A stretch of DNA of 64,000 nt. Origin: Phascolomyces articulosus. Taxonomy: Eukaryota > Mucoromycota > Mucoromycetes > Mucorales > Lichtheimiaceae. The notes below the pieces were generated by a model. It saw only the letters and a program-made list of their open reading frames with translations, made no database searches and was not told the origin of the DNA. Below, in pieces: positions 3,673-52,700 of the stretch. Numbering within the stretch: position 1 is the stretch's first letter; each line of letters opens with the position of its first letter. The stretch lies in the NCBI GenBank assembly GCA_025677815.1, contig JAIXMP010000046.1, positions 124,001 to 188,000 on the forward strand, read 5' to 3'. A program made the position numbers and the translations under genes.

Positions 3673-6600
3673 TTATATGAAAGGAATACTATCCAAATCC
3701 AATTCATCATCTTCATCATCCATATCAAAAGTAGGCTGTTGATCATCCACTTCTCCTTTACTTCCTGTTCTTGATAATGTAGCTGGGTGATCCAAAAGTT
3801 CTTCTGATAAGGATGATTTACGTGCTGCAAATGTTCTTGATAATACACCACCAAATCCAGTTGTCATTTTATTCATTAAGCTACTTGTGGATGATGTGGA
3901 TGATGGAGCTGGGGACGTTGCATTGTTATTGTTACTGTTGGGTGCTGATAATAAATCGTCTGAAGAAGAATAATGGGGTATAGCATGATATTTTTCATTT
4001 TCTGGTGAAGATGGTGATGGTGGTGAAGCAGATCGTGCACTTTCAGCCGGACTTGTTCTACCACTACGTGATGTGATTACCAACGATGGAGTGGATGTTG
4101 AAAAGTGCCTAGCTCCTAATCTACTTGATAATGGGGTCGATTCACTTATACTATTGTTGGTTGTTGTACTTGATGATCGTGAAGTAAAGCTTCGAAGAAG
4201 TTTACTTCGTTGTTGTCTTTGTTTTTGTGCTTCTGATTCAATAATAGTTTCACTAGGTAATGCACCTGTTGGATCTGGTTTAATAGGTACAGGCTTGGGG
4301 GATACAGGCGGTAAAATAGATACACTACTTCCATGGCTATGAATCTTCATACCATTTGAACCCGGTGTTTTACTATTATTCCCATCCCCTCCTCCATCGC
4401 CACTTGGTGTGGTGCCACCATTGGTGGATGACACAGATGCCTTTGTTGAACTAATGATTGGTAAATCAGGAATATCAATTTCAGGTAGCGGTTGTTTCCA
4501 ATAATTCCAATCATTAAACTCTTCACCTATATTCTTGTTAATTGGAGGAAAAATCTGGTCCACCAAGTCATTTAAATGAATATATGACGATAAAAACCCT
4601 AGCAACAATTCCAGCTTGACATCACCATTTGGATCTATAGTAAAGATTCTAGACGCAGGTACATGGACACTCCGATAAGAAATAGCATCCGTAATACGAT
4701 TACCGAACCCAGCATAAAAAGGTTTTGAATCATCACCAAAAAGGCGTTGAATATCCCTGAGACAAGCCATTTTGAACACTTCGGGTTTTCTCATAATGAC
4801 TTCACGATGAAACGATGTAAAAAGTCGGTCGGGTGACATGATCACAGGACCCGCCGGCAGCTGATGTTTACCGTCTTGTTCCACACGCTTCAAATAATCC
4901 CGCGTATAATCTGCTTGACCAATCGCTCGACTGGTCAAATACAGAATATGATATCCGTTGTTGGTAATATCAGTATAGAGTTTCGCTACCCCCGTATGTG
5001 TCCAATCTTTTCCAATGAAATTAAACACGTGTCCTAAAGCGTCCGATTTGGTAATGGTTCCGTCGATGTCGGATATCACAATTTGTATGTCATGGTCCCA
5101 ATAAAAAATTTGTGCCATGCATATCGCTGTGCCTTGATATTCTGTTGTGACCGAAAATGAAATTGTGTTGGCTCCTTTTTTTAACCCTAGGCACTTTAGT
5201 TGGTCTGACGTTAATCGCAACGTTTTGGCATAGTTTTTATGGGGTGTGGGTGGAACCATCACTGGTTGTTGTTCTTCTAATGTTTGTTTTTGTTGGTCCA
5301 GTGGATGATGTTCATGATGATGATCAGGTGACCAACCTACAGAAGTAGTGGTTGTCGTCGTTGTTAATCGTGTTGTAGTCGTTTTTTCGTTTTTCTCTTC
5401 TTCTCCATCTTTATTCACTCTATTGTCATCATTAGGGCCTGCTGACAGATTATTATTATCCATAGCAGATGTTGGTCCAGTGACAGACGATCGACTCCAC
5501 CATTGCCGCCATCCACGTCCAAATAAATAAGATTCTCGACTATCCGAATCCTGATTATTATCTTGATGAGGACGGTTCTCTTTATCAGGATGACCGCATT
5601 CATTATCGTGTTTGCGCCCTTCTTCTGTTACCTTATCCATTGGTGGTGGCTCATGGAATAAAAAGAGAGAAGTGAATAATGGACCTGTACGTCCTGCTGC
5701 ATAATAACGTCCTTCATATCGGAATACAAGTCGTTGATCGTTGAGTAAATTTGGATTATGAACAAATTTGTCATATGTAATTTGATGCTCGTTAAATAAT
5801 GTAGCGTTGTCTTCTTCCTTGGTCCCAAATGTTGTCAATCCACATAAACTCAATTCAATACGATAAACAACACCAGGTTCCAATTGTAGTTTTTTGGTAC
5901 CTACCATCGAGGTGGAGGATGATCGTGATTTTCTTGTTTGTGTCATCATTGTAGTATTGGTCGTTGTTGCCAATGATGAAGGTGATGATGATTGAGGAGG
6001 TGAAGTTGATTTTCTACGTGTATTGCCCCATCCCCATCCAGTTGTTGTTGTTTCTGTAACTTCCTTTTTTGGTTCTTCCTTCTCTCCTTCCTCTTCCGCC
6101 TCCTTATTGCTGTGATTTTTATCTCCTTGGTGATTATTCTCTAATGGTTGAGGCGAATCAATAAGTTCATCCTGTTGCTGTATATCATGACCGTCGTTAT
6201 GGTGATTAACAAGAACTTTATTTGTTTTATCGTAATGGTTATGACGGTGATGGTGATGATCATTTTCAGTTTTATAGCCAGCAATATCCAAGACAATTGA
6301 TTCATGTTCTGCATTCTTTTGTGGTAATGGCTGCTTTTGTTCTTTTTGTTGCAGTTGTTGCTGTTGCGATGCTCGTTTATCATTATGGTTATTAACCTCC
6401 AAGTCAGGCAGTTTATTATAAACAGATGTATGAGTGACATCCATCCATTTACTATTGATATCACCATGGGTAGGTCGGACAATAAACGTTTCTTTAGCAA
6501 TGGTAGTGGATGTCACTGCTTCAGCTGGTTGAACTCGTTCCAATAAGGTAGATCCATCATCCAATGGGTAAGTATCATGATTTGCTATCTTTTTATCATC

Positions 6601-7590
6601 GTCTTGTAACGTCAATTTATCAGTCATATGTTCCAAATGCTGATGATGATGTTTTTGATATGGATCCATTTTAGTCACTACTTTATCCATTTGTTCTTCA
6701 ATAATCATTTTGGGAGATTGTAATTCAGCGGGTATACGTATTTTGTTGATATCATTTGTGGAATTGTTGGGTAGCGCTGTTTCTATGTTGGGTAATTTAT
6801 CTCTTTTGTCTTCTCCGTCTTCACCCTCATCCTCATCAAATTCATCCTTTTCGTCTTGGTCCTTTTTATCTATTATAAATGGTATAAATTTTAATATTTC
6901 TATTTCTATTCCCATCTATCAAACTATATATACCTTTGGATCCTTTGATCTCTGTAGAGGCAGTAGTAGATTGTCCTTTTGATTCACCAATGTCTAAATA
7001 AGGTGGTTCCTAAGAGTATACAATTAAAAATAAACGTCAGAAAATCCCATGAAAATGTAATGAAGAACGATAAACATAAAAGAATCTAAAACGCTTACTT
7101 CACCCGTTTTGGTTTCATCCACTGCCTCCAACAATGGTGAAGTTTGAAATTCTTCGGGTACTTCATGTTCTGTCTCGAAAACAAAAAATGCTTCACCAGC
7201 TTCACCTAATTTCATCACATACGGCACTATTTGATCATTCACTGTGATAACCACCTAAAAAATAAAATTAAATAATATGGAAAAAAAAAGCACAGGTCAA
7301 AGAAACAGAACACATTTCATAATTTATATCCTTTTCGTAAAATATTACAACAATAAATTGACATAATTAAAAAAGAGATATCTCACCTTTTTTTCTTGTG
7401 GCATAAGAAGTGAGAATTTACCAAATCGTACATGAAATGGAGAACAAGCTAATTCACCATCTTGTTGCTCAACTACAACAATATCAACAGCACCGGATAA
7501 AGTAGCCGGGTTTAGTTCGTTATAAATATTTTGTACTGAACTAAAAAAGTTGCTAATGGAGCCCATGTTTAATTTCCCAACAAACGCCAT
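3673..7590 (-). CDS. PAH1: Lipin-type phosphatidate phosphatase (PAP1)
   Basis: Mg2+-dependent phosphatidate phosphatase that makes diacylglycerol for triacylglycerol and phospholipid synthesis, acting at the ER/nuclear membrane. Four exons (7590-7387, 7254-7099, 7009-6934, 6869-3673) keep frame and encode 1210 residues, longer than yeast Pah1 (862). The N-terminal lipin domain is clear (MNSISNFF-like GSISNFFSS, then SPFHVRFGK). The C-terminal lipin/HAD domain carries the catalytic DIDGT at about residues 746-750 followed by TKSDALGH, plus GNRITDAISYR and DVKLELL. Between and after them lie long low-complexity linkers rich in His, Gln, Asn, Thr and Ser, including acidic DDEDDELDLD near the end, likely phosphoregulated in analogy with Pah1. 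The start matches the conserved N-terminus. Confidence 0.95.
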
Positions 7591-20753: not shown

Positions 20754-21744
20754 TGTTCTCATCGACGAGCAACGAAATATATATATACATGAGAAAGTGA
20801 TTTTGTTTTCTCTATAAAAAAACACATAGGTATAGATTGAAATTATTGTATGGCATTTAGTGCATGGTGGTGATGACAAAACGTTTATCTCAACGTGAGT
20901 GTGTATTACGAGTACGAGTGGTGTAGGAATGGTTATAGGGATGGTTGGGGTATTGGGTGGTTGTGATGATGGAGTGTGTTTATGCGGTTTATGCAGTTTA
21001 TGCGGGGAAGGGGTTGTCGTATTCTACATAATAAAATAACTCCATGATAAAACATATATCATATAAGGGCTCAGCCCAAAGAACATGTCCAAATAAGGAA
21101 ACCCAAATCCTTCAATTTTAAAAAGGAAATTAAGTCAAATCGCATAACGATGTACTACACAATAAAATCTAAAAGAAAGGATCAAAGGGTGCGCCATATT
21201 CTTGCACTCGATCCTATGGATCCCATATTTCTATCATCCTCATAAAAGAAATAATTATACAAGAAGGACCCGAATCCGTTATACATAATACGTAATAACC
21301 CACTAAGCCCTCATCCATCATAGGATAGAAAAAGTATAAATAAGCCATTGTGAAAGTAATTGTAAAAAGCCCTTTAATCAACTTTTTATTTCCATTTGGA
21401 ACTCTCATAATAAACCTTTAAGAAAGTCTCAAAGGATTCATACCGTCCATTTTCTATTTTTTGATATAAAAATCTACCAAATTCCACAGGGGTGAAATAT
21501 TAGGCCCAGGTACCATAGCTGTGCCCGAAGGAATTAATTTTTTTTGAAAATTGGCCGAAGCGAAGCTGAAGCCAATTTTTAATTAAAATTCTACTATTAT
21601 GAAGCAATATGATGGTTTTTATTAAGAAAAAAAGAAGATAGATATAATATATGATCAAAAATATAATAGTTGTATGTAGTATCAATAATTGTGAAGTATA
21701 AGTTGATGGAAAAATGTTCAGGTTGGTCGTTTTAGAAATTATAT
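20754..21744. other. 3' flank of the DDE-exonuclease gene
   Basis: No gene seen. A minus-strand frame at 21408-21214 shows no recognisable feature and is not called. I searched this flank for a terminal inverted repeat matching the other side of the gene (26.6-27.0 kb) and found none by eye. Confidence 0.4.
21547..21579. repeat. 9-bp stem hairpin
   Basis: AAAATTGGC (21547-21555) and GCCAATTTT (21571-21579) are perfect inverted repeats around a 15-nt loop containing GAAGC repeats. It sits about 165 bp beyond the stop codon of the DDE-exonuclease gene and could lie in its 3' untranslated region. Function unknown. Confidence 0.5.
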
Positions 21745-24700
21745 TCATTGGTTATTATTAGATTTCAAAAGAGGGCATGTTCCTCGTCCTGTTCTGCCAA
21801 TGCATGAATTACTTCGACATGTTTTACAATGTCTGACACGTGTTGGTGCATGTAAACCATTAGAGGCATTGGTACTTGAATAAGGAGCAGTGTATGTTAA
21901 AGGAAGTGGCGGATAAAGCAATTGATGCGGTAGAAGTGGGCTATAAAGTATTGTTGAGGACATTGGCTGTTGGATAGTATTTGCTGTATGACTACTTATT
22001 GTTTCGTTTGAAGGCGGTGCGACAATGGAGTCAATGTGCTCAGTATTATCAGTTTCTTTTTCAATTTGCGATGATGGTGTTGATGATGATGTAGCATTTT
22101 CCTGATCAATAATAGCTTCAATTCGAGGTATTTTAAGAGCTGCAGGAGTTTGGGCTTCTGGAATATTATGCTTTCTTGTTGAAGAGCGTAAACTCTGCTG
22201 CAAAATTTCTAACTGTTCTTTATAGCTATTCTTTGTAATACATATATTCTGATACTCACACCATTTGCTGTGGTAACTGTGTAAATGCTCCGGTGCTTTA
22301 TAAAAAATGGTCTTTCCGTCGACAAAAGCTGACCATAATTTTGCGAACCTGTCAAAATCAGGTTGTTGATTACGTTGGGTTTGTTGAAGAAAATGTTGTC
22401 GAATTAATGAATCATATTTGTTGCGCTCAACTTGTGTTTGTACAGGAATTATAGCATGGGCAGCCCCTTGGCGTTGAGCCATAAATTTATATTGTGCTCC
22501 AGGTGTATGTGCTGTTGAACCATGTAATATGACCAATGTAGCTAAATCAAAGGAAGACGTACGGCATCTTGCGGATGCTATTGAGCTATTTGCCGAAGGA
22601 ATGTTATATAGATCCATAAGTGGTTTGGGTAGAGTGGAAATACCAAAACTTTCGTCAGAAGAAGCAAGGTGAATAGCATATTTATGTACTCCAGGTTCAT
22701 CATAAACAGCTGGTAATCCAAGTTGCAGGCGTAAATCATTTATATGTTGAGTGAGCCATGGCTCATAATGTCCTTTGTGAATTTTTCCATATCTATTCAT
22801 TGTTCCGACCTAAAACATCGTAATAGTAAATTAGTTTTATAGTCATTTTTAGTCATTATTATATTCATAAAATAACATACATCAATGTTATGGCGCAAAC
22901 GATAATCTGCAAGGACGCCATCAGCTAATGCCGGACTAGCACCAAAAGACCCAAACTTCCGAATTACATTCTGATGGATGCCTCCCTCAAGTGAATTGGT
23001 TCCTCGACAACAGCGATACAATGAGAGCCCATCTCGATCTTGTCCCATTTTAAAATAGAATGAATAACCAGGAGGATCTGAAACGTGGCCTTCATGAATC
23101 GATGATAGCACATTTTTAGACTTCTTCCATGCTTCATTATCAAATAATGGACGTCCTGTTCTTGCACATTTCAAAGGACCATATGTTTCAAACAAATTTT
23201 TTATAATAGGATACAAGACTTCTGGTGGTGGAACAGCTCCTATAGGACATATATTGTTTAATATCATTATCAACATTTTTATATTACCAAGATATACTTT
23301 AGTTGCAACAACTTCTACTTACGTTTCACACGACGAAAGATCCACCTTGGATTTTTTAGTAGTTTTTCATCCCATGTTGTTTCGTACCGTGTTAAAACTG
23401 CTTCAACCTTTTTCTTATCATCTTCATCTACAACAAAAAGTGCATCACGTAGCTTTCGTGAAAAATCGTTTGCAAGCCCATGTCTACGTGGTACTTTAAT
23501 CTGATCCATGAGATGAAAAACATCTTTTAGTACTCTTGAGCGGATGAATTCACTAGGTGAATGTTCAGGGAGGGAGGAGAATTGTTGATTTCCATATTCT
23601 CTGCTTTCCGTTTGTATTTGTGATGAGTTTGGATCTTGATGAGGCGTTGGTTCGTTATCTTGAAGGATGGACGTGATATTTTCATTGCTACTGTAATCAT
23701 CATCTTCATCATTCACTTGTTCATTTCCATACATTTCTAGGTATTTTTTTTTGTTTAATTAACCATTTTATCATAATAAACATAGAAATATATTAAATAG
23801 CTATACAGAACATACCTATTGTAGATATATCAACATTATTCGATTGTTCACTGTTATCAGTTTCTTCAACAGTATTTTGAGAATTATTTTGGATATTAAC
23901 AGAATGTGATGTGCGTAAATCGGATAATCTGGCAACTATTTCAAATGGGACTTGACCGTATTCAGAAAGAGGTTTTCCATCTCTATCCACTGCGTTCGGA
24001 ACTAAGACCTGTTTTATGTTGATTATAACCTGTGTCTTGGTTAACTTTTTATTATCAAATCTATCTCGTTGGCAGCTTATTTCTCCATAAGCAGCGGGCA
24101 GAACCATAGACCAAGGATGATAAGATATGGACGTCCCTATTTCATTTGATAAATATCAGAATGAAAGTACTGCAAAGAATACAAAATTGAAATGAATTTC
24201 CATAACATGCTGCTAATGTATACCTTCATTTACTGGTTTAGTTACTCGTTTTCCTATCACTTCATTCTGTTTCAATTTATGATAAATTTGTAAGCCGGCC
24301 CAGGCATCCAAAGCAGCGTATTCCATTTGTGTATCAGATAAATCACTAGCATCCCAATCACTGAGGCGAACATTATTATCCTTCGGTAAAAACCGTTCTA
24401 AAACTCGAGCGCAAATTTCAGACAAGCTTTTTCTTTGTCTTTCAATAGCTCCACGTTCCTTGCAATATAAGGCAACATCATATCCGCCAACACAAGTACC
24501 AGGATCAAGACCAAAGTTTCGTTCAATTTTTTTTAAATCACCTTGTATAGCACGTCCAAACTTGATAATGTTTGAATTAGATAATACCTCTATCAATGGT
24601 TCAGGAAGGACATCCAAATGATGAACACAGTATATATCAACCGTATTGTTATAAGCAATTTGTATTGTGGCAAGCTTTCCTGGTTCACGAGTTACAGGAT

Positions 24701-26586
24701 CAGTAGGCCATTCACAATCAAAGCCGACTACTATTTGCTTTGGTTGAGTAGGCTCTGAAGTACTAGCGATAGGTGTTTTGATAAGATCAAGCAACTCTTG
24801 TGCGGCAGATGCTATACGATCAGTTTCATTTATGCAACGAATTTCTACACTGTCTCCAGGAATTGTTAACTTTGGATAATTGCTATAATCAACGGATTTA
24901 CCGGGTTCAGGATCTGTTACAGGTTGGAGGGCTTCCTTCAATGAAGGAAAAACATTTTCCAGAAAACCCTTGTCGCCTCTTACGTTATCCGTAAAAAAAA
25001 TTTCGGGATGACCATGACCGTAGAAATCGAGCGAGCGTCGTACAGCATTAAAAGCATATTTTAAATGAGAAAGGGATTTTGTTGGAACAAGGTATTGTAA
25101 ACGTACTTCTTCATACTCGTTGAGAATTGTGTATAAAGCAGTAAAAATTGGTGAGCCATCAACTTTTCCAATCAGTTTGATGATTTTGAACGAATGATCT
25201 CCCTTGAGATACTTTGCATCAAGGACCATCATTTGTTTGTCGAGTAAAGGCCTGATTTCTTCCATGTAGTTGGTGTAAAACGATCGAAAGTACTGGGGTG
25301 AAGGTATAAATCCTCCATATCCATTTTTATCGTCGAAATCAGAGAAAGAAGGTAATATATTGCTGCTGTTATTCAAAGTGAAATAATTATCAATTAACGG
25401 GTTTTCGTTTCGATATACAGCTGCAGTAAGGTATTGGAATTCAAGTCTGGCGTGTTTAAGCTTGTGTAGTTCGCGCAATATTTTCTGGAGTCGCTTTGGT
25501 CCGACAGAATTTTGCATGCAAGGTCGTAAAAGATCACCAACTGTTTTTGACACGCCACTTCTGTGTGTTAAGTATCCAGGATATTGACATTGAAGGAATT
25601 TTGGGAGTTGACGAATAATATTTTCATTATTGGCAACCGATGTAAACGTGCAATTACTTTTGTTTTTACATTTATAACGTGATGAAAGAATATAAAAGCA
25701 ACTTGAATAATGAAAAGAGTTAGTAATGTTAACTATATATACAGTAACACATGTCTCACATTATTTTATTAAACTTTCAGATTACTTACTCAGTAAGATC
25801 CACTACGCGACGTGCTTTTTCTACATACCCTGTTGATTTGAGTTCGGATTTACATTTAGGGCATTTCAATACTTTTTTTCCAAATTTTTCCAGTAATAAA
25901 TGAGGAAGCCAAAGAAAAATACGTGGATAATAAAGACTATCCGGGTTCAGATCATGTATTAATGCAAAAAATGGTTCTTTTGGCTGCACCCAAAAGGTTC
26001 CTCTTTTGTATTCGTCTGGATATTTCTCAAGGACAATGCGCTGATGGATATCATCAAGGTATTTTTGAATTACACCAACTTGTACCTCGGGTTCATCACC
26101 ATTATTATTGGAGGTGTCGTTGTTCGAATCGTTATCGTCTCTCGTGGTTTCATCGACAGTAGCATTAGTATCATAGTCATCCACTGCTTCGCGTGTCCTT
26201 GTAATAATGATATCTTCAGTTCCTTCTTGTCTATCAATATCTTCATCTTCATCTTCATCATCAATATCAATTTCATCAAGCACCTCTTCTCCTTCGATTT
26301 CTTCTTCTTGTGCTGGCATCATGGTGTCAAAGATTATTTCCCCAAGGGGTACTTGATCATCCAACGGCAATGCTGTTGTTTCTTGTTGTATATGTGCTAT
26401 CGAGGTGTCATGTTTCTCGCTGGCAGATGAGTTTGATGAAGATGGAACATTGTTACTATTGACCGTGTTAAACGATAATTTTTTTTGTTTTTGATCAACT
26501 TTTTTAGGTCTCCCAGCATTGTGTCCTTGGGCGTTCTTTTGGCCAGAAGGTCGACCTCTTTTTTTAAAGTTGAGATTCCCTTCCAT
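21745..26586 (-). CDS. DDE transposase-like protein with nested DEDDy 3'-5' exonuclease
   Basis: Six exons (26586-25790, 25701-24224, 24136-23816, 23736-23323, 23239-22881, 22809-21745) keep frame and encode 1477 residues. In order: AT-hook-like KKRGRPSG and NAGRPKK; an acidic Asp/Glu/Asn-rich stretch; a conserved IFLWLPHLL segment with a zinc-ribbon-like CPKCKSEL...YKCKNKSNC split by intron 1 (resembles the DUF6729 region); LPKFLQCQYPGYLTHRSG; first Asp in MMVLDAKYLKGD; second Asp in IFFTDNVRGD; a WRN/RNase D-like exonuclease with FDCEW, KFGRAIQGDL and YAALDAWAG; Glu in RGTNSLEGGIH; and a terminal Cys motif CKTCRSNSC..GRGTC. All DEDD plus Tyr and the presumed DDE residues are present. No terminal repeats seen. 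It may be a transposon gene or a host gene derived from one. Confidence 0.85.
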
Positions 26587-27715
26587 CGAGAAAAAGAATT
26601 CAAGAGTATTCTGTACGTTTGAATGTAGTCGAATGTAGGTGAATTGAGTTGAATGGGACCGAGTAAAATAGTGGTGGGAAAGAAAAGATGAAACACTTGA
26701 TCTTATTTCTCACAATAGACAAGAAGAAATACATTTTATAATGCATTATGCAGGCACACACAACCTTTCGCTCTCTGAAAAATGTATTACACATATATAG
26801 ACTCCAGGCATAGAAACAGATTTTATTAAATCGAGATTTTATTGGCCAAAACCATTAAATTTATTAACTTTTTCTCTGATTGGCTCAAGTAGGCACATCC
26901 ATGTTATATTAAAAAGTCGGAGGGGGAATTTTTGACACGAAATGAGACTAAATGAAGCGAAACGAAATGACGGTTGAGTAGAATGATTGAGGTGAGTAAC
27001 TGATGTTAAAGGTTGGTGGTGTGGGTTGGTTATTATTACTATTAGTTAGAGATGTATTATTTTCAAAATGTGAGCACTGTATAAAAAAGGAGATTTCGTC
27101 TGGTATCTTTTCATTCCGCAATGGTGGTACAAGATGTCAAACAAGAAGAAAAAAAGAGTTGATTGTCATTTTTCTTTTTTCACTTTCGCTTTCCCACTTT
27201 CCCACTTTCTCACTTTTTGTTTCAATCATTTTTTTCCAACGCATCATTTTTTATATATATACCAAATTACAGCCTCATTTCGAAACGATGGTTCCCAATA
27301 ATGTTATATTCCAATAGTTCATGTAAGAGTATATAGATAGATAGATAGATAGATAAATATTTATAAATATGACTGACGACTAAAAAAAAATCCGCCTTCT
27401 TTCTTTTTTCTACATAGACACTACATAGATATTCTTTATATCACTTTGTTCTTTTTAATCGATCCATCGACTCAGCGATTCATCGATGATTGAAACGATT
27501 AGCAGGAGGAGGTAAAAGAAGCGTTTCAAGATTTCTGTTAGTTTCTATACGTGAATAGAAATACGCAACAGAGGGTGAGAGAGACAAAATCTTGAGTGGC
27601 ATACATTTACGGTGAAAAAATTCCTTTTTTTTTCGTCCATCTATATATTACATCATATTATTATTGAAGAGCCGATGGTCACTATCGTTGTTACTGCAGA
27701 TGGTACCCGATCCAT
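26587..27715. other. 5' flank of the DDE-exonuclease gene and spacer
   Basis: Contains the promoter side of the DDE-exonuclease gene. At 27175-27300 a pyrimidine-rich tract with CCCACTTT repeats leads to an ATG at 27289, which looks like a gene leader, but the frame stops after nine codons and I could not find a convincing first exon. A (GATA)n tract lies at about 27331-27354. Confidence 0.4.
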
Positions 27716-49702: not shown

Positions 49703-52700
49703 ATGATCGTGATGCGATTTTTAATAATTTTATTACTGTTGGCCAACATTCGAGAAATCAGCAGTATGTATTTTTTAAAGAAATCCTCGAGAAAATGAGA
49801 TCAAATGACAATTCAAAAACTAAATGATTTATTCTACAAATATATTTCTATTTATTATCAAAAAAGGTCACTCGATGGCAGCCGAACGAATATCTCGAAT
49901 AGAAACATTAAATGATCCAACACTATCGATTCATAATAATATTCAACAACCCACGACAACAACAAAAACAACCATTATACGACATAGTGATACATTTACA
50001 TTACGATTTAATGCATTTGATACATTTATCAATTTACATTTAATACCCAATCTGGATTTGTTTCATCCAGATGCAACCTTATTAATCTATGGAAAAAATC
50101 AACATAATGACGATGACGACGATATTATGATAGAAGAAGAAAAACCATTACATCCACATGAACATAGAATATATAAAGGCGATGCAAAAGCGGATGATGG
50201 GTCTACCGGATGGGCGAGAATTATTATTCGAGATGATGACGAGTAAATAACGATATTCCAACTTTTTTTTAATCAACAACGTTTTTTTTTTAACTAACAA
50301 GCCCTAAACACAAAATTCTTTTTTAATGCGTCCTGGCAATGATTGCATGAATTAGGCATACATACCCATATCCTTTATTTGAAGGAGCTTTCATGCTTGG
50401 ATCTGACATATATCATATAAAAACAACCACCAATTTCCATCTCAGTAAACGCAACGACGACCCATTCCCATCCAATACCAATTCCCCTATGGTAATTTAT
50501 CGTGATTCTGATATTCAACAAAAACAAAAAAACCGTCACCTAGTATCTCGAGCTCCTGAACATGATGATGATTTCATGTGTGCCATGGAAGAAATGCAAT
50601 TTAATCAAAAGTTGACTGGTATACGAAATAGTTCATCTACTCCATCGCCCGGCAGCGCTCCATTAGGAACAGCGCTGGATGGAATGACAGGTGTATTAGG
50701 CGATAAAAATCAACATCATGCATCTTCGACTCACCATTTAGAAAAACGATTTAGTTCGTTGAGTGGATGTCCAAGTACACGAAAAATTGCTTATATGGGA
50801 GCCGTGGCGGACTGTACCTATGTACAATCTTATGGCAGTATTCGATTCGCACGATTACAAATCATGAATGATTGGAATGTCGCTTCCGCTGTCTATGAAC
50901 GAACATTCAATATTTCATTGGGTCTTATTTACGTACAAATGTCACAACCGGATTGTCCAAGACACCCACGATCACAACAAAATTGGAATCAAGAATGTTC
51001 AGCGTTTTATACCATTAATGATCGATTATCCGATTTTAGTTTATGGCGTGGTAAAAGAGGAGATGATGGTGCTGCATTGTGGCATTTAATGACAAAGTGT
51101 TCGTAAGTGATCTTCCTTGTTCTAGATTAAATCAATATTTATGCAGAAAGTGAAGATAAAGGGATAAAGGTTTAACATGGGAGGATGATCAATATTTATA
51201 TAGAACGGGTGTCAAAGTAGGAATAGCCTGGTTAAGTCAGTTATGTGAATCTCAAGTTTCACAACAAATTGAAGGTATTATATATACAGGATGGATTTGA
51301 TAAGAGAGCCGCATGTGTTACTGTATTAAAGCAAAAACTAACGGTATTGGCATTGTAGAAAATGGTGCGTCTGAATGGGTATCTGGTACAGGTGTATCAT
51401 CTATTACTCGCGATGAATGGAAAGTAGTAGCTCATGAAATAGGTCATGGATTTGGTATGGAAACAATTAAATAACAAAAAAAAAGATGGAGAATGAAACA
51501 AGAATAGAGGTGCTTATGATGTTAGTTTATTAGGAGCTATCCATGATTGTACTGCACAGACTTGTCCATGCTCACCGTCTGGATGTAGTTGCTGTCCTTT
51601 GAGTGATACCAAATGTAGTGCGGGTGACACCTACCTCATGAACCCAACAAGTAATGTCACCAGTGAAGATTTTAGTCCGTGCTCTATCTCTGATATTTGT
51701 GGGTCCTTTCCGAATATTGGTTATTGCCTACAATGTAAATGTCATTATTTTCTCAAACATCTCATTTCAATTTTTGTTTGCTATTTGTTATGGTTTATGA
51801 TTGGAGAACGTTAAAAGAAAAAAAAAATAACTAACAAGTTTATTCTATTCACACGCTAATGTTTTATTTATTTGTTTGTTGATTAGCACCCGATTTACGT
51901 GATACGACATCTTTTACCATGTGTGGTAATGGAATTTTAGAACCTGGAGAAGAATGTGATTCAGGATTAACTGATAGTGCTTGCTGTCATGCAAGTACTT
52001 GTAAACTTAAACAAGGAGCCGTTTGCGAGTAAGTTCATTTATTATTATTATTGTTATTATTTATAATTATAAACATAACATCATTTATTTATAAAAAGAT
52101 AATAATAAAATCACAAAACACATCTGCAAAAAAAAAACCCAAATTCTTTTATATTTATCTTGTTTTTATTTATTTATTTTATTTATTTATTTATTTTTTT
52201 ATAGTGACTATAGTCAACAATGCTGTCTCAACTGCACGGTGGCTCCTTCTACCGCCATGTGTCGCCCTGCAGTATCGGAGTGTGATATTCCGGAATACTG
52301 TACAGGGGAATCCTTATCCTGTCCTAAAGATGAATATCAGGAGAACGGATCTCTTTGTGCCAATGGTACGATGAAATGTGCCTCTGGCGTATGTACATCT
52401 CGTGATGAACAATGTATTGCTCGTGGTATGCGACTTGGCGTCACTGAAGAGTGTTCGTTTCAAAAAGATTCGTGTCAAATTAGTTGTGCCGATCCTATGG
52501 ACCCAGGGAATTGTCTCGTGTTAAGTGGCGTCTTTCTGGATGGAACAGAATGTGGTTTAGCTAGTTTATGTGAAAAAGGATCTTGTGTTAGTACTGGTGC
52601 ATGTAAGTCTTTTTCTTCTATTCTCTATATATGGATGAACAAAGAAGAAGAACTTTAGAAAAGAAGTTGTTTATTTATTGATTATTTTTATTTTATAGTG

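Follow-up and report, generated by a model that had tools for sequence, protein, structure and literature searches.

The closest described systems to the element analysed here are the Dada transposons, the subject of a 2013 paper reportedly by Kojima and Jurka. As far as the portions of text considered from PMC3706591 and PMC8869645 go, canonical Dada elements of fish and Perkinsus have no terminal inverted repeats (TIRs), produce target duplications of 6-7 bp (8 bp being possible for Dada-U1) and insert into U6, U1, 5S or tRNA genes; no exonuclease is reported for any of them, and some copies lie inside other transposons (hAT) or have unlike flanks at the two ends. The same portions of PMC3706591 describe Dada transposases from Laccaria bicolor and Ectocarpus siliculosus in which a DEDDy exonuclease is located between the second D and the DxxH motif of the DDE domain. 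Here we describe a multicopy element from the Mucorales fungus Phascolomyces articulosus, one copy of which lies in a stretch of 64,000 nucleotides (hereafter the window; contig JAIXMP010000046.1, positions 124,001 to 188,000). This element is very probably an autonomous cut-and-paste DNA transposon encoding a predicted transposase of the Dada-type DDE lineage with a WRN-like DEDDy exonuclease inserted between the second catalytic Asp and the DxxH motif.

The gene was modelled by combining the GT..AG pairs within narrow stretches set around each intron. Six exons separated by five GT..AG introns (minus strand, 21745-26586) form one continuous reading frame of 1477 residues, in agreement with the frame proposed in an earlier, sequence-only reading of this DNA. 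In the stretches searched, two splice combinations were open, yielding proteins of 1477 and 1476 residues that differ by a single residue and have identical domains. Residues 266-758, comprising the two Asp motifs, the entire exonuclease and a portion of the zinc ribbon, are encoded by the second exon without an intron; because the first two Asp residues and the exonuclease are thus encoded in one uninterrupted exon, their joining is not a splicing artefact. Pfam search of the 1477-residue protein at E<=1 produced matches to DUF6729 (residues 198-361, E 4e-18), which corresponds to the zinc-ribbon-like domain of the sequence-only reading, and to the 3'-5' exonuclease (residues 580-744, E 4.4e-18), and nothing else, so that two of the domain types which that reading had proposed for profile searches were recovered and the MULE (Mutator-like element) and DDE models were not. 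The AT-hooks it listed are present as two AT-hook-like motifs in the sequence, with no Pfam AT-hook match at this threshold, and the Cys-rich end was located as a cluster at residues 1451-1468. The motifs FFTDN, FDCEW, QGDL, YAALDAW and TNSLEGG were all found in the translated protein.

Candidate catalytic residues were assessed in an alignment of 31 relatives and the window protein, with the latter included in the counts and only rows with a residue at the respective site considered. The assignment of the first catalytic Asp to VLDAKY (D427) had to be abandoned: this position is occupied by Asp in 10 of 31 rows and otherwise by G, S, T or P, and the conserved residue is D434 of KGDHSFK, seven residues further (Asp in 29 of 30 rows). 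The second Asp, D504, is conserved in 30/30 rows and the Glu, E1088, in 28/28. A DxxH motif that had gone unmentioned, with D937 and H940, is conserved in all 31 rows.

The WRN-type DEDDy exonuclease resides between D504 and this DxxH motif, so that the evidence fits the initial impression of a complete exonuclease between the second Asp and the Glu of a DDE-type protein. Among solved structures, the family profile matches WRN best (4e-44; PDB 2e6l, 2fbt), a protein in which the exonuclease is joined to a helicase rather than to a transposase. In a larger set of 137 aligned relatives, which includes the matches listed from the search with P0006 (best 120 of 186), 126 proteins have 100 or more residues of the exonuclease lobe at this position. 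The hosts among the matches listed include Mucorales, Agaricomycetes, Rhodotorula and the aphelid Amoeboaphelidium. Of these relatives, 41 with a gap at one or more of the nine sites checked were set aside; among the remaining 96, the D/D/E triad is intact in 93, the exonuclease set DEDYD in 86 and both sets in 85, the 11 exceptions including P0011 and P0012, which retain the transposase residues and have lost those of the exonuclease. The median identity of the relatives to the window protein is 0.33 for the exonuclease versus 0.46-0.47 for the two DDE parts. The impression gained from the sequence alone, that the insertion is unusual or new, is therefore not supported: apart from its presence in these 126 relatives, the nested layout is the published architecture, given that PMC3706591, in the text considered, describes exactly this position. 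The same text already proposes trimming of 3' ends by the exonuclease in transposition, the idea at which the sequence-only reading had arrived.

Comparison of the spacing between the second acidic motif and DxxH, 27 residues in the sturgeon protein P0138 versus 433 in the window protein, indicates that P0138 represents the core without an insert. In Amoeboaphelidium, the insert consists of 261 residues, 192 of which belong to the exonuclease part, with little else. Three gene models from Apophysomyces (P0006, P0032 and P0033) combine DUF6729 with the DDE core and lack the exonuclease, with three different junctions; all three are gene models and are gapped elsewhere too. P0032 is also fused to other Pfam domains (SH3). 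Five relatives (P0011, P0012, P0112, P0092 and P0135) carry an exonuclease-like lobe with changed active-site residues.

The interval 21745-26586 given in the sequence-only reading correctly delimits the gene; the mobile unit is larger, extending from 21503 to 26907 and including inverted repeats. BLAST search of the 47-Mb genome identified four other copies (C23, C1, C75 and C46) with 98.6-99.8% identity to the window element, and pairwise identity among the five aligned copies is 98.3-99.8%; the C46 copy has an internal gap near one end. Because five near-identical copies share the same two boundaries, the 5405-bp element is more than a chance similarity. The gene is intact in two of the five copies (the window and L009) and is disrupted by frameshifts, a stop or a lost splice site in the other three. 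The other four copies open with GGTGGGG. The full-length inverted repeats, taken from another copy, match at 16 of 23 positions, a value that none of 100000 shuffles of one end reached. Target duplications were scored in the six copies with both ends (the window copy and L009-L013): L010 and L013 are flanked by perfect 8-bp duplications (CAAGAAAC and CGTTTTTT, respectively), L012 by one with a single mismatch, and in L009 and L011 the flanking sequences differ between the two ends. Judging from these sequences, the element is recently active and has spread in multiple copies.

Two further observations concern the copies and their kin. L010 and L011, on different contigs, have 2.2 kb of 5' flank in common at 99.7% and differ in their 3' flanks, which may reflect recombination, translocation or an assembly effect. 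L053 (C39:354900-361000) represents, in this genome, a diverged second family with a transposase of the same type, protein P0004 (100% match to C39 over 848 and 209 residues) being approximately 42% identical over the main stretch.

The protein displays several published hallmarks of Dada: the DDE triad D434, D504 and E1088, the last two separated by DxxH (D937xxH940), an N-terminal CCCC zinc finger (C242, C245, C277, C283) with a spacing unlike that of Dada-U6_DR, and, as in the exonuclease-bearing members, a DEDDy domain between the second D and DxxH with all catalytic residues present. In what is described in PMC3706591, the Laccaria and Ectocarpus elements share with ours the DDE domain, the N-terminal CCCC zinc finger, DxxH and introns, and the published range of Dada lengths (4666-10979 bp) accommodates the 5405-bp element; the latter differs in having clear TIRs, 8-bp duplications, a CCCC rather than CCHC end and no RNA-gene target found, although the ends of the Laccaria and Ectocarpus elements may be similar in these respects. 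Canonical Dada, as presented in PMC3706591 and PMC8869645, resembles the element in transposase layout and preference for multicopy targets and differs in the three element traits of 6-7 bp duplications, absence of TIRs and insertion into small RNA genes. An indirect connection is suggested by sturgeon P0138, which was found by a profile of 13 relatives (E 4.7e-44) and has the published Dada-U6_DR spacing of 68 between the first and second acids and the C-terminal C-x2-C-x9-H-x8-C of that element, along with an N-terminal C-x4-C...C-x2-C as in published Dada with a middle part shorter by two residues. Acipenseriformes have been reported to carry Dada.

Several points weigh against the assignment to Dada or against mobility of the element. 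The window protein has no Pfam DDE match, and its C-terminus contains C-x2-C-x4-C-x8-C in place of the CCHC zinc finger of Dada. In P0138, Asn replaces the first Asp, the distance from the second Asp to the Glu is 193 versus 176 published, and the record is flagged as unverified contamination; more generally, Dada kinship was judged via published descriptions and spacings and via P0138. The window copy is truncated by 7 bp (the GGTGGGG) at its 26907 end, and an 8-bp duplication was not found in three of the six copies scored (the window copy, L009 and L011). To these are added a short match to MULE transposases and the stops in the copies used for the analysis of selection, both detailed below. 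Given the TIRs, the 8-bp duplications, the CCCC end and the lack of a detected RNA-gene target, we file the transposase as Dada-type rather than as canonical Dada.

That the element is instead a strongly diverged MULE which gained its exonuclease independently of Dada appears improbable. By eye, the first-Asp motif D-x-S/T-F/Y-K and the order TD...FP...C/DxxH resemble those of MULE proteins from the same genome, weak MULE domain matches occur in one of the 31 relatives (E 0.14) and in P0139 (0.022; reached by the family profile at 5e-10), and when profiles were compared with those of MULE transposases from this genome, a short stretch at the second Asp aligned weakly, with a probability of 5%. 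In that comparison, the MULE profile scored best and DDE_3, KDZ (Kyakuja-Dileera-Zisupton) and the exonuclease lower, a weak control with only 3 KDZ and 4 DDE_3 sequences. An 8-bp target duplication could also be compatible with the MULE superfamily. Such traits do not separate Dada from MULE because, in the text considered, PMC3706591 states that Dada is distantly similar to MuDR, hAT, P and Kolobok; the weak similarity at the second Asp would agree with this distant relationship and proves nothing. With no significant MULE domain match in Pfam, in the relatives or in the profile comparison, and with the position of the exonuclease, the DxxH motif and the zinc-finger layout all matching Dada as published there, the MULE assignment was rejected. 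KDZ was likewise rejected, PF18758 being unmatched at E<=1 and absent from the 25 families listed for the 31 relatives. Still less credible is a host gene, such as one for a repair nuclease, or a pair of genes erroneously fused in annotation: two intact and three broken copies could result from domestication, but copies located at different sites have the same boundaries and are accompanied by inverted repeats and duplications, a single exon encodes both Asp residues together with the exonuclease, and the identical domain order recurs in proteins from many fungi.

It seems unlikely, if less so than a MULE origin, that the exonuclease is no longer catalytic and merely holds the transposase together or binds DNA, as might be suggested by P0011 and P0012, with their preserved D/D/E and lost exonuclease residues, and by the three Apophysomyces proteins and one sturgeon protein without the lobe. 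All five residues are, after all, retained in 86 of the 96 proteins, the three Apophysomyces cases come from models with further gaps, and selection acts on the lobe. The ratios of nonsynonymous to synonymous substitution rates (dN/dS) against the diverged copies L013 and L014, respectively, with the stops in these copies (4 and 1 among the codons compared) skipped, amount to 0.075 and 0.068 in the first DDE part and to 0.077 and 0.069 between DxxH and Glu; the exonuclease gave 0.11 and 0.10, and the disordered N-terminus 0.32 and 0.26. The exonuclease is thus under purifying selection nearly as strict as that on the transposase core. Ratios against L018, L021 and L015 were computed and not relied on: all three contain stops, L018 is without the exonuclease, L021 yielded no exonuclease value, and the L015 ratios exceed 1 (DDE, exonuclease) at dS near 0.01.

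For the Dada-type transposon that we favour, a cut-and-paste mechanism is indicated by the family assignment and the target duplications. By analogy with related families, the zinc ribbon and AT-hooks would bind the element ends, D434/D504/E1088 would carry out cleavage at both ends and strand transfer of the 3'-OH into a staggered target, and gap filling would yield the 8-bp duplications. For joining, the element's own 3' ends must remain intact in DDE enzymes, and the exonuclease may therefore act, most plausibly, on flanking 3' ends or on flank left by an inexact cut. Quite possibly, then, it removes flanking nucleotides from the 3' ends made by the cut, either from the donor flank or from flank left on the element, and so readies the ends for joining or repair, a role close to that put forward in 2013 for Dada in the text considered from PMC3706591. 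Because some relatives are without the lobe or have lost its active site, this activity looks helpful rather than obligatory. KolobokD offers a parallel as a DDE transposon encoding a DEDD-superfamily exonuclease with a proposed action on 3' ends; its exonuclease is of the DEDDh type (like TREX and ERI1), the element belongs to another superfamily, and the portion of PMC9587614 considered does not mention nesting in the catalytic core.

The insertion sites were compared at 18 element-flank junctions, comprising both ends of six copies and one end of six more; L020 and L021, the ends of which are missing, were left out. Seven of the 18 junctions (L009 at both ends, one of them altered, and L011, L014, L015, L018 and L019) fall at a single position, CCCC-AAAAAAAT-GG (its A-run being variable), within the inverted repeat of a second element. 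This element, of approximately 5 kb, gave weak matches to Transposase_21 and DUF4218, both below the cut-off, and is tentatively considered EnSpm-like. A 17-base segment of this repeat was found at 18 genomic places (at most one mismatch), four of which adjoin the Dada-type element described here, and unoccupied target sites are found in L050, L051 and L052. The target is a preference, not a rule, since the other 11 junctions lie elsewhere. The C23 copy is flanked on both sides by repeats of the second element, and L009 is enclosed by both repeats, an arrangement at C23 that would most readily arise from two insertions and subsequent recombination. A hairpin target was also considered for the 73-bp inverted flanks of the C23 copy and was rejected, these flanks being the inverted repeats of the separate element. 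No tRNA genes were detected in the 12 loci and the window (ARAGORN, bacterial code), and no Rfam matches at the gathering score in the 12 loci. A rather doubtful extension is that the exonuclease-bearing fungal Dada-type lineage switched its whole integration style, with TIRs and 8-bp duplications replacing sub-terminal repeats and 6-7 bp duplications, and with one fixed site (CCCC-AAAAAAAT-GG) in the inverted repeats of another transposon as the preferred multicopy target instead of a small RNA gene; the enclosure at C23 would then stem from recombination between copies, one per repeat, and the exonuclease may be part of the change.

Among the literature matches listed, no title deals with fungal Dada; judged by these titles, the ends and target of the fungal Dada-type lineage were not described before. 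The literature searched contained neither the name DUF6729 nor a paper joining Kyakuja with an exonuclease, and PMC12730594, PMC3985635 and PMC6431247, in the portions considered, concern other transposons. The place of DUF6729 in a Dada-type transposase suggests a function for this domain. The reason for having a 3'-5' exonuclease in the core of a DDE transposase can now be sought by a simple excision assay, for which this system offers a fungal element that is intact, recently active and delimited by defined ends and 8-bp duplications, together with natural relatives with lost or altered exonucleases and a preferred target with empty copies in the same genome. Feature coordinates are collected in the table.

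Table. Coordinates of the Dada-type element and its encoded features in the 64,000-nucleotide window
Feature	Position in window	Strand	Basis
Whole element, window copy, 5405 bp common to five copies	21503..26907	-	copy comparison
Terminal inverted repeat, downstream end, reads GGCCCAGGTACCATAGCTGTGCC on the plus strand	21503..21525	.	end comparison
Terminal inverted repeat, upstream end, truncated, 16 of 23 bp present	26892..26907	.	end comparison
Transposase gene, 1477 residues	exons 25790-26586, 24224-25701, 23816-24136, 23323-23736, 22881-23239, 21745-22809	-	splice modelling
Two AT-hook-like motifs (GRPSG, GRPKK)	26500..26556	-	sequence
DUF6729 zinc-ribbon domain, residues 198-361, Cys 242, 245, 277, 283; split by first intron	25416..25995	-	Pfam
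First catalytic Asp, D434 of KGDHSFK	25197..25199	-	alignment conservation
Second catalytic Asp, D504 of FFTDN	24987..24989	-	alignment conservation
DEDDy 3'-5' exonuclease, residues 580-744 (D594, E596, D654, Y727, D731)	24267..24761	-	Pfam and alignment
DxxH motif, D937 and H940 of KDVFHLM	23513..23524	-	alignment conservation
Catalytic Glu, E1088 of RGTNSLEGG	22986..22988	-	alignment conservation
C-terminal Cys cluster C-x2-C-x4-C-x8-C, residues 1451-1468	21775..21828	-	sequence

Elsewhere in the window, a 1080-residue open frame with Lipin (LNS2) domains (3676-6915, minus strand) represents an ordinary host gene, and an open frame at 50351-51103 on the plus strand has a match to a reprolysin-like metallopeptidase.

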